53,487 nucleotides of DNA from the NCBI GenBank assembly GCA_017993835.1, contig JAGOLX010000042.1, positions 1 to 53,487 on the forward strand, written 5' to 3'. Positions 5,748 through 10,114 of the stretch are shown in pieces. Under the pieces are notes generated by a model. It worked only from the letters and a program-made list of their open reading frames with translations, ran no database searches and was not told the DNA's origin. The translations under genes were made by a program, and so were the position numbers. Within the stretch, counting starts at the first letter, position 1. Each line of letters begins with the position of its first letter. This stretch comes from Phycisphaerae bacterium (GTDB lineage: Bacteria; Planctomycetota; Phycisphaerae; Sedimentisphaerales; Anaerobacaceae).

Positions 5748-8468
5748 ATGAGCAGGTTGCTATCGCTGTCGCTGATCCTGGTGTTCTTCCCTGTTGTCCA
5801 GATGTCTGTGTCGTCCGCCGATGACGCGAGCCGCATCCAGCCGTGGTCCGAGAACCCCCGCTACTGGCAGTACAAAGGCCGGCCCATCCTGCTGCTCGGC
5901 GGCAGCAAGGACGACAATCTGTTCCAGATCCCCGACCTCAAGGAGCATCTCGACGAGATTCGCACCGCCGGCGGAAACTACATCCGCAACACGATGAGCG
6001 ACCGGCAGGACAAAGGCTTCGAGGTCTATCCATTCGCTCAGCGCCCCGACGGCAAGTACGACCTCGACCAGTGGAACGACGAGTACTGGCGGCGCTTCGA
6101 GAACATGCTCCGCTGGACCGCAGAGCGGGACATCATCGTGCAGATCGAGGTCTGGGACCGTTTCGACTACTCGACGAAGAACTGGGAACCCCATCCGTAC
6201 AACCCGAAGAACAACGTCAACTACACCTACGAGCAGTCGGGCTTCGCAGAGCACTACCCCGACCACGCGGGTACGAACAAGCAGCCGTTCTTCTTCACCA
6301 CGCCGGACCAGCGGGACAATGCGGTCGTCTTCAAGCACCAGCAGCGATTCGTGGACAAGATGCTGTCCTATTCGCTCCGGTACGATCACGTCCTCTACTG
6401 CATGGACAACGAGACCTCCGCCCAGGAGCAATGGGGCGCCTATTGGGCCGGCCACATCCGCCGTCGCGCCGTGGAGGCAGGCAAGAAGGTCTGCATCACC
6501 GAGATGTGGGACGCGTGGGACCTGAAATCCGACGAGCACAAGCGGACGCTCGACCATCCCGAACGGTACGACTTCGCGGATGTCTCGCAGAACAACCAGA
6601 AGAAAGGCCAGGAACACTGGGACAACTTCCAGTGGGTGCGAGCCCATATCGCGGGGCAGCCGCGACCGCTCAACACGGTGAAGACCTACGGCGCCGACGG
6701 CGGTCGTTTCGGCAACAATCGCGACGGCTTGGAGCGGTTCTGGCGACATGTCATTGGCGGGGCGGCCTCTGCGCGGTTCCATCGGCCTGATTCCGGGCTG
6801 GGCCTCTCCGCGCCGGCGATTGCCGCCATTCGGGCCGCCCGTGAGCTGGAATCGCTCGTCAAACCATGGGAGGTCGAGCCCGCGAACCACCTGCTCAGCG
6901 ACCGTGCGGAAAACGAAGCCTACGCAGCCGCTCGTCCCGGCGCGGCCTACGCACTGTATTTCACCGATGGCGGCTCCGTCGGCCTGGACCTCAGAGATGC
7001 GCCGGGTCGTTTCGATGTCCGCTGGATCGACATCGCGACCGGGCAATGGGCCAAGCGGGAGAATGTCGAGGGCGGCGCCGTTGTCACGCTCCAAGCCCCC
7101 CGGCAGGGCCATTGGGCCGCGGCCATCGTACGGGCCGCATCTGCATCCGTCGCCGATTCCAGCCCGGATGCATCCACCGCCCGCATGCGACTGCTCGTCG
7201 AGACTGATGCGGGCGGCGACCCGGATGACGAGCAATCACTGGTCAGATTTCTTCTCTACGCCAACGAGTGGGACATCGAGGGAATCATTGCGAACCGGCC
7301 GGCGACGCGTCGCCCGGAGAACAAGAATCCCGAGGATACGGGCCTGGGCATTGTCCGGCGGCTGCTCGACGCCTACGGCCGATGCCGGCCGAACCTCGTG
7401 CAGCACGATCCAAGGTATCCGGAGAAGCAGTCTCTCTGGCGATGCACCGTTCCCGGCTGCAACGATACGGACGAAGCCGTGAATCTGATCCTCGCCGCGG
7501 TGGACCGGGACGATCCGCGTCCGCTCTGGTACTCGGACTGGGGCACTGACAGCGGCGCTGCCGTGAACAACCTCAGGCGAGCTCTCGACCGCGTCCTCCG
7601 CGAGCGGGGTCCGGAGGGCTATGCCCGATTCAAATCAAAGCTGCGCCTGTCATCCTACAACAAGTTCGCCGAACACACGACGACCGTCGCACCGCCATTT
7701 CCAATCTGGGTGAACACGTTCGAGCCCCCGCTCGAGGGCAAGCGATGGTACCATCGCTTTTCCGCTCTCACCTTCCATGCGGGTGGATTCGATCTGGTGC
7801 GCGACGTGCTCACCGATCATGGCCCGCTTGGTGCGCTCTACCCGACGAACACGACGCACTCGGGCAAAGAAGGCGACACGATGACGTTCCTCTACCTGGT
7901 TCCCACGGGGATGAACGATCCGAACGAGCCATCCTGGGGCAGTTGGGCCGGGCGCTACGGTCCGAATGAGAGCTTCCCCGGCGCCCGATACTACTGGGCC
8001 AATCAGATCGACGCGTGGGATGGCGCCAGCAGCCGTGACAACACGCTCGCTCGCTGGGCGGCAGACCTGCAGAATGACTTCCGCGTGAGGCTGGACTGGT
8101 GTGTGAAGCCGCCGCGCGAGGCGAACCACGCCCCGCAGGCTGTCGTGAACGACATCGGCGGCAAGGAGATCCTGCGGATCACCGCCCGGCCGGGGCAAGA
8201 GGTTGCGCTCAACGCCGCTTCTTCGCACGACCCCGACGGCGACGCGCTCACCTACGAATGGTTCGTCTATCGCGAGGCCGGCACGTATGAGGGCGAAGCG
8301 ACGATGGCGAACGTCTCGTCGCCGCTGGCCGTCCTGCGTGTTCCCTCCGACGCCGGCGGCCGGGTTATTCATGTCGTCTTGGCCTTGCGTGACAAGGGGA
8401 TTCCGCCGCTGGCGGCCTACCGGCGGGTCATTGTACAGGTTGCCCGGGAACAGGATCAACGTGGATGA
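5748..8468 (+). CDS. Secreted fusion: glycosidase-like (DUF4038-type) barrel plus Sde182/DUF1593 nucleoside-hydrolase-like domain
   Basis: Two enzyme-like modules in one secreted protein of about 906 aa. After a signal peptide (~1-25), residues about 30-370 resemble DUF4038/GH-type TIM barrels; acidic candidates lie in CMDNETS and ITEMWDAW. A small beta domain follows (about 375-465). From about residue 480 the chain matches the DUF1593/Sde182 family: [12 protein letters not shown] resembles the Asp-rich Ca2+/ribose site of nucleoside hydrolases. An Ig-like C-terminal domain (about 775-900, [14 protein letters not shown]) ends it. Sde182 homologues are described as cellulose-binding; the catalytic role is unproven. 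The ATG at 5748 is preferred to a GTG at 5742, which overlaps the ribosome-binding site. It is the first gene of the plus operon and ends 11 bases before the next start. Confidence 0.8.
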
Positions 8469-8479
8469 GAAGGAGAAAG

Positions 8480-10114
8480 ATGGTGAAACGCAGCCAGCGA
8501 GTGGCCATTTGGATAGTGGTCTGCCTGATGTCGTCTCTGCAAGGGATCGTGACGGCGGCAATGCCTGCGGCCGGTCCTTTGCGGGTTCATCCGCACAACC
8601 CGCGATATTTCACCGATGGGACCGAGAACGCCGACGGTTCGCTGAAGGCGGTCTACCTCACCGGCTCGCACACCTGGAACAACCTCGTCGATATGGACAA
8701 GGCGGATCCGCCCACCCCCTTCGATTTCGAGGGATACCTGGACTTTCTCCAAGGACACGGGCACAACTTCATTCGCCTGTGGACGTGGGACTCGGTGACG
8801 TGGGACACCCGGGCCAACGGCAAGCTCGGCAAGGACTTCGTCCACCACGTCGCTCCGTTGCCTTGGGCGAGAACCGGGCCCGAAGAAGACGAATCGGGCC
8901 TATATTCTGCAACGAAATCTCTTGGCTCGATTTCGTTGAAGAATGGAGGAGCCGAATCGACCGACGCGCGTCCGGGATTTGGGAGGGAAAAATCGAAGAC
9001 GGAGATTTTTCCCTCCCAAAGTAGGCCCGATTCGTCTTTTTCGGACTCGGGCAATGCCTTGGACGGCAAACCGAAGTTCGACCTCACGAAGTTCAGCCCA
9101 GAGTACTTCGACCGTCTGCGGGCGCGGGTCCGCGCCGCGGGTGACCGGGGGATCTACGTCTCCGTGATGTTGTTCGAGGGCTGGGGACTTCGCCATGGCA
9201 ACCGCAGGTCGGGCACGCCTGACGGCTGGGCCTATCGCGGACACCCCTTTCATCCGGGCAACAACATCAACGGCATCACGGGCGACCTGAACGGCGACGG
9301 CAACGTCCTGGAGATCCATTCCCTGGCCAGTCCTGCGATTACGGCATTGCAGGCGGCCTACATCCGCAAGGTCGTCGATACGGTCAACGACCTGGACAAC
9401 GTGCTCTTCGAGGTCATCAACGAGGGCGGCGAGAAGGAATGGGACTGGTGGGTCGTCAAGACCATCCAGGACTACGAGCGGACGAAGCCCAAGCAGCACC
9501 CGGTCGGTCTGACCGGCCACGGCGGCGAGAAGACCGACAGCATGCTCGCCAGCAACGCCGACTGGATCTCGCCGGGCGGGCAGGACGGCTACCGCGACCC
9601 CGCGCCCGCCTGGGACGGCAGGAAGGTCAGCCTGCTCGACACCGATCACATCTGGGGCGTGGGCGGCAACCATGCCTGGGTCTGGCGGAGTCTCCTCCGC
9701 GGGCATAACCCCATCTTCATGGACCCCTACGACGGCTCGTTGCTTGGGAATCGGTTCGATCCGAAGTTCGAGCTGCTCCGTCGGAACATGGGCTACACAC
9801 GGCGATATGCCCAGAGGGTGAACCTGGCCGCGATGACGCCGCGATCCGAACTCGCGTCGACGCAATTCTGCCTCGCCGATCCGGGCAAAGAGTACCTGGT
9901 CTACCTCCCCGACGGCGGCGATGTCACCGTGGATCTCGGCGCCGTCTCGGGCGAGCTGTTCGTCGAGTGGTTCAACCCTCGCACCGGTGAGACCGCAGAG
10001 GGCCCCCGCGTCGCCGGCGGCCAGAAACGCACGTTCAACCCGCCTTTCGCGGGCGACGCAGTCCTTTATCTGAGGTCTGCCGGACCGGGTGCAACCGCGC
10101 GCCCGGAGTCATGA
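8480..10114 (+). CDS. Secreted glycosidase-like protein interrupted by an in-frame palindromic repeat
   Basis: Protein of 544 aa with a signal peptide (~1-28) and a TIM-barrel-like body similar to DUF4038/DUF6298-type putative glycoside hydrolases. The segment FEVINEGGEKEW supplies a likely Asn-Glu acid/base pair; a short C-terminal beta domain (about 460-540) resembles the putative collagen-binding modules seen with these barrels. The ATG at 8480 is chosen because AAGGAG lies at 8470-8475; an in-frame ATG at 8465 overlaps the preceding stop (ATGA) but would place that motif inside the gene. Residues about 132-190 (KSLGSISLKNGG and flanks) are low-complexity and encoded by a nested palindrome at 8874-9050, splitting a segment that otherwise reads RTGP then ALDGKPKFDLTKF. 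Whether the protein tolerates the insert is unknown. Confidence 0.78.
   Translation: MVKRSQRVAIWIVVCLMSSLQGIVTAAMPAAGPLRVHPHNPRYFTDGTENADGSLKAVYLTGSHTWNNLVDMDKADPPTPFDFEGYLDFLQGHGHNFIRLWTWDSVTWDTRANGKLGKDFVHHVAPLPWARTGPEEDESGLYSATKSLGSISLKNGGAESTDARPGFGREKSKTEIFPSQSRPDSSFSDSGNALDGKPKFDLTKFSPEYFDRLRARVRAAGDRGIYVSVMLFEGWGLRHGNRRSGTPDGWAYRGHPFHPGNNINGITGDLNGDGNVLEIHSLASPAITALQAAYIRKVVDTVNDLDNVLFEVINEGGEKEWDWWVVKTIQDYERTKPKQHPVGLTGHGGEKTDSMLASNADWISPGGQDGYRDPAPAWDGRKVSLLDTDHIWGVGGNHAWVWRSLLRGHNPIFMDPYDGSLLGNRFDPKFELLRRNMGYTRRYAQRVNLAAMTPRSELASTQFCLADPGKEYLVYLPDGGDVTVDLGAVSGELFVEWFNPRTGETAEGPRVAGGQKRTFNPPFAGDAVLYLRSAGPGATARPES
8874..9050. repeat. Nested palindromic element inserted in frame in a coding sequence
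   Basis: The outer arms 8874-8901 and 9023-9050 pair over 28 bases, with two G-T pairs and one mismatch. Their innermost 14 bases (GACGAATCGGGCCT/AGGCCCGATTCGTC) are perfect. Inside lie two perfect hairpins: 8911-8919 with 8929-8937 (9 bp) and 8978-8994 with 9004-9020 (17 bp, loop 9). The whole would fold as a three-way junction. At 177 nt it is exactly 59 codons with no stop in the gene frame. Base composition is visibly more A/T-rich than the host gene. It has no transposase, so it is MITE-like or comparable to Rickettsia palindromic elements. Confidence 0.85.

Follow-up and report, generated by a model that had tools for sequence, protein, structure and literature searches.

An in-frame palindromic element dispersed in a Phycisphaerae genome and its likeness in behaviour to Rickettsia palindromic elements

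Selfish palindromes lying in frame within genes have so far been regarded as peculiar to Rickettsia and Wolbachia, where they are mainly known. The Rickettsia palindromic elements (RPE) and their Wolbachia counterparts are palindromes of 100-150 bp present in many copies (PMC3767692, PMC10969869, PMC3733652), about half of them within ORFs and in frame, with orthologues that carry the insert and others that lack it, and the same sites can hold different families in different species (PMC3767692). Among other dispersed palindromes, REP/BIME repeats with their RAYT transposases lie in short intergenic spacers and occasionally within genes, and REP-type repeats have been reported from Planctomycetes (PMC3733652). 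MITEs, ERIC and RU elements with ORFs are non-autonomous, bear inverted repeats and are in part intragenic (PMC2759123, PMC10969869), while in the mitochondria of Nematomorpha long palindromes occur in translated genes, both arms encoding conserved host protein (PMC6649704). A literature search found no paper describing such in-frame palindromic elements in Phycisphaerae.

The element described here was found in a stretch of 53,487 nucleotides from a Phycisphaerae bacterium (assembly GCA_017993835.1, contig JAGOLX010000042.1), referred to as the window. A sequence-only reading had described a nested palindrome inside a glycosidase-like gene, in frame and free of stops, and this is borne out by inverted repeats, folding and the ORF, which continues through the palindrome without a stop; the gene product matches Collagen_bind_2, with a DUF6298 match just under the cut-off. 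The size originally given, 177 nt or 59 codons, required correction. Six same-genus orthologues are uninterrupted at the site, reading RTGP followed directly by GNALDGKPKFDL, and the comparison delimits an insert of 168 bp, or 56 codons, at about 8880-9047 with junctions ambiguous by one base; the covariance-model boundary of the copy is 8881-9044. About 9 nt of the 177-nt span belong to the host and lengthen the palindrome by chance. The features of the locus are:

8465..10114, + strand: host ORF, 549 aa, glycosidase-like, with DUF6298-like and Collagen_bind_2 domains (ORF and domain match)
8880..9047, + strand: inserted element, 168 bp or 56 codons (missing in six same-genus orthologues)
8881..8902, + strand: 5' outer arm (inverted repeats, consensus structure, covariance model)
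8905..8943, + strand: inner hairpin 1, consensus stem 15 bp, loop 9 nt (inverted repeats, consensus structure)
8978..9020, + strand: inner hairpin 2, perfect stem of 17 bp (inverted repeats, consensus structure)
9022..9047, + strand: 3' outer arm, whose complementarity carries on a few bases into copy-specific flank (inverted repeats, flank test)

An inverted-repeat search recovered outer arms at 8874-8902/9022-9050 (29 nt each, 90% complementary) and inner hairpins at 8899-8919/8929-8949 (21 nt, 86%) and 8978-8994/9004-9020 (17 nt, 100%). The 21-nt hairpin is stronger than the 9-bp one proposed earlier. The nested palindrome is confirmed as real and far beyond chance: its RNA fold has an energy of -110.4 kcal/mol (z -9.7), equalled by 0 of 200 shuffles. 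The element is also more A/T-rich than its gene, as had been stated, with a GC content of 0.51 against 0.64 for the remainder. In many copies the apex of hairpin 2 carries the reverse complement of the apical motif of hairpin 1, and this common, inverted motif gives the element the look of an inverted dimer. Unlike the nematomorph palindromes, whose arms encode conserved host protein, it is an insert that orthologues lack.

Both findings that would have refuted the earlier reading, a single genomic copy and homologues bearing the segment, were looked for and did not appear. The six orthologues are empty, and the 177-bp query matches about 41 separate places in its own genome (72-88% identity); with one or more further copies from a covariance model, the repeat family numbers at least 42. 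Their alignment defines a common core of about 163 nt, GGAAAAAGGCAGATCGGGCC...GGCCCGATCTGCCTTTTTCC, and two subfamilies, one GC-richer (35 copies) and one more A/T-rich (6 copies). Of 41 copies examined, 21 lie in frame within ORFs, 15 in sense and 6 in antisense orientation, and no out-of-frame gene disruption was seen among the 41. Host genes encode PurQ, NAD synthase, PdxB, an AhbC-like radical SAM protein, RNase R, an FeFe hydrogenase, a GH2 enzyme, a GH127 enzyme, a PstS-like protein and an MTHFR-like protein. Judged by Pfam domain edges the inserts sit in linkers, such as residues 563-635 of the FeFe hydrogenase and 306-366 of PdxB. Some copies are interrupted by other small repeats, none with a transposase gene; separately, in a copy that follows a signal peptide (L042:3044-3220) the middle is swapped for another hairpin repeat with the frame still open.

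For 11 host genes the two flanks were joined and compared with the nine genomes of the genus; relatives with an empty site were found for all 11. Clean inserts measure 165 bp in the FeFe hydrogenase and GH127 and 168 bp in the window gene. Since copies are dispersed and sites occur both filled and empty, the element has been mobile in the past. Sister species carry a copy at the same position in PdxB (G005) and GH127 (G004), possibly one shared event each; in GH127 the two copies share only 82% identity, and that of G004 is closer to other copies of the window's genome. As in MITEs, terminal inverted repeats are present in the form of outer arms of about 20-30 bp and the element seems non-autonomous and partly intragenic. 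As a possible difference from MITEs, no clear target duplication was seen (none was consistent at clean empty sites, where relatives are only 80-88% identical) and no autonomous partner was found among the Y1 transposases examined. For RNase R and GH127 the empty site lacks at least part of one arm.

These observations are very probably explained by a non-autonomous selfish palindrome of about 165 bp, dispersed through the genome and translated as a tolerated spacer. The family is known from 12 or more genera of the order, and outside one subfamily every sampled copy is intergenic; in this genome's lineage the GC-richer subfamily combines a length of 165 bp with at least one frame open throughout. 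Under this account a copy that enters a gene would survive if it offers an open frame and the site is tolerant, be it a loop, a linker or the stretch after a signal peptide, whereas the others would be purged by selection. The ribosome would read the insert as a spacer of 55 to 56 residues that the host may tolerate, movement would be by an enzyme supplied in trans, and the complementarity of the arms may be maintained by hairpin template switching or by selection on single-stranded DNA structure.

Sense copies read as SEKGRSGLYSSTKSLGSISLKNG...SRPDLPFSD and share one frame because out-of-frame insertions have been purged, so that the shared frame is not separate evidence of design. Only two of the six consensus frames are open. 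Among full-length sense copies, frameshifts affect 8 of 12 intergenic but 1 of 12 in-gene copies and stops 6 of 12 against 0 of 12, a contrast that is partly ascertainment, an open frame having been the mark by which genic copies were identified, and in which two copies entered as intergenic or unclassified (L024, L034:6902) were later seen to be in frame in antisense. Codon position 2 is the slowest in genic copies only (p 0.02, against 0.88 for intergenic ones). From these frames the host proteins are expected to be about 55 residues longer, translation being what we infer. Little purifying selection is evident on the peptide, which seems able to drift: codon differences between positional orthologues are 8:2 non-synonymous to synonymous in PdxB and 16:7 in GH127. 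A functional-peptide reading was rejected on the ground that positional orthologues differ mostly non-synonymously.

Removal of the element before or during protein synthesis, whether by RNA excision of the intron or IVS type or by ribosomal bypassing of the hairpin, might be expected from its very stable fold and from hosts that include essential enzymes seemingly intolerant of large inserts. Yet in-gene copies keep the frame and are stop-free despite consensus stops in four of six frames, neither of which an excised segment needs; antisense copies remain open through different frame combinations; and Rfam gave no match to an intron or any other family at the element, in the window region or at 20 relative loci. 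Such removal is therefore hardly credible. The earlier reading had left mobility, translation and splicing undecided. Of these, mobility in the past is upheld by the filled and empty sites, there are strong indications of translation, and splicing is without support. Elsewhere, a TPP riboswitch lies at L177:739-870.

The consensus structure, an outer helix enclosing two hairpins, covaries strongly. Both sides have changed in 26 of 48 pairs, a count reached by 0 of 500 shuffles, and 98.1% of cells are paired. Alternative pairs are Watson-Crick rather than G-U in 109 versus 21 cases among own copies and 204 versus 33 among relatives. Complementarity also extends into the flanks in a copy-specific manner (positions 1-8, 170 of 264 against 93 expected, 0 of 5000 shuffles). 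Watson-Crick double changes together with complementarity into copy-specific flanks suggest copying between arms at the DNA level, of the kind described in quasipalindrome template switching (PMC7202029, PMC3820800, PMC8604942); the flank complementarity and the arm missing at empty sites fit either DNA-level copying of arms or variable ends that are kept complementary. Strong covariation across many genera and constant length would fit a structured RNA or a regulatory element that is conserved, with gene insertions as incidental. Against it, copy dispersal and empty sites amount to mobility, the scarcity of G-U pairs, predominant Watson-Crick double changes and copy-specific flank complementarity fit DNA-level processes better, and the Rfam match is absent, so that this explanation is very improbable. 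Covariation between hairpin loops within copies showed no excess among own copies and a modest one in relatives and the pooled set, for which reason kissing loops are not claimed.

Beyond the window's genome, every one of the nine genomes of the genus has full-length matches to covariance model R1. Across the order such matches occur in 24 of the 161 genomes and 12 of 84 genera, one positive genome belonging to another family. None of 40 copies read from relatives has a coding-like ORF placement, and in 18 of 23 copies from other genera every frame is closed. By gene calls from our own codon-usage scoring, trained on the window's genome rather than taken from curated annotation, in-gene copies number 21 of 35 within the GC-richer, ORF-compatible subfamily and 0 of 46 outside it in a first sample (p ~2e-10, which overstates independence, the copies being related). 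A later sample of 20 further copies was mostly non-genic, the in-gene ones being of the SEKGRSG type (L211 in G005, L220 in G001) also seen at L010, L092, L094 and L095. The exact first-hairpin pattern has a single match in 84,980 genomes, a Phycisphaerae bacterium MAG from Lake Pavin sediment, and none in a scan of viral contigs. A stepwise origin can be put forward tentatively, at slightly less than an even chance, in which an ORF-compatible subfamily arose within one lineage from an old intergenic family, most of whose frames are closed by stops, and then spread through the proteome; that lineage also admits, at the same permissive sites, several in-frame families of repeats unrelated to it.

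The enzyme that moves the element was sought among Y1 transposases, of which the genome has five matches. Movement as a REP-type element by such a RAYT transposase would suit a genome that holds these enzymes and, around one of them, a separate GTAG-REP array, and the element shares with REP/BIME its dispersal, short intergenic spacers and occasional intragenic copies. It is nevertheless unlikely: the element occurs at 0 of 35 Y1 loci in the window's genome and nine of ten relatives searched, a genome with 13 copies (G150) has no Y1 match, although it is only 78% complete, and REP units are GTAG- or CGTC-tagged single hairpins of 20-40 bp, whereas the element is about 165 bp with three helices and has no RAYT linkage. 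The array itself (L103, G000:C37 near 114923), a weak Y1 match amid about 12 GTAG-type REP matches, is probably a REP/RAYT cluster whose repeat is distinct from the window element. This GTAG-type REP is also nested in window-element copies at L037:3771-4007 and L036:1354-1529.

The selfish in-frame palindrome favoured here resembles RPE in its many copies, in the share (about half) found in ORFs and in frame, in orthologues with and without the insert, and in sites that hold different families in different species, here those of the MTHFR-like gene. It differs in its phylum, in its large genome, in being a 165 bp apparent inverted dimer with a three-way junction and in an intergenic family visible in at least 12 genera, and no sequence relation is shown. 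The Rickettsia parallel drawn at the outset is thus a good description of behaviour: the element appears to work like an RPE, and descent is not claimed. An unrelated-looking family would then do likewise in large-genomed Phycisphaerae, core enzymes included, with its likely intergenic ancestors persisting in related genera, which opens the questions of how a repeat becomes coding-compatible, by what route it inserts and what amount of foreign peptide a bacterial enzyme can accommodate. For annotation, such inserts distort protein families.

Further in-frame repeats were observed in the same genome. A second palindromic family (AGAAGGTGAGAAGGTCGGAGAGTC...) occurs at L020:3680-3813, L025:2776-2901, two sites in L037 and about 30 further places; 7 of 8 sampled copies lie in ORFs, and the family reads as EQKVRRSEGEKVGE...RPSDLLNFSPSSS. 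The MTHFR-like gene (L037:2047-5160, minus strand) holds four in-frame inserts of several families, and its counterparts in G004 and G005 have other families at some of the same sites. A third in-frame insert, STGILPV...GRDAHAAT, lies at residues ~130-153 of the PdxB gene (L017) and is present in G005 and absent from G001.
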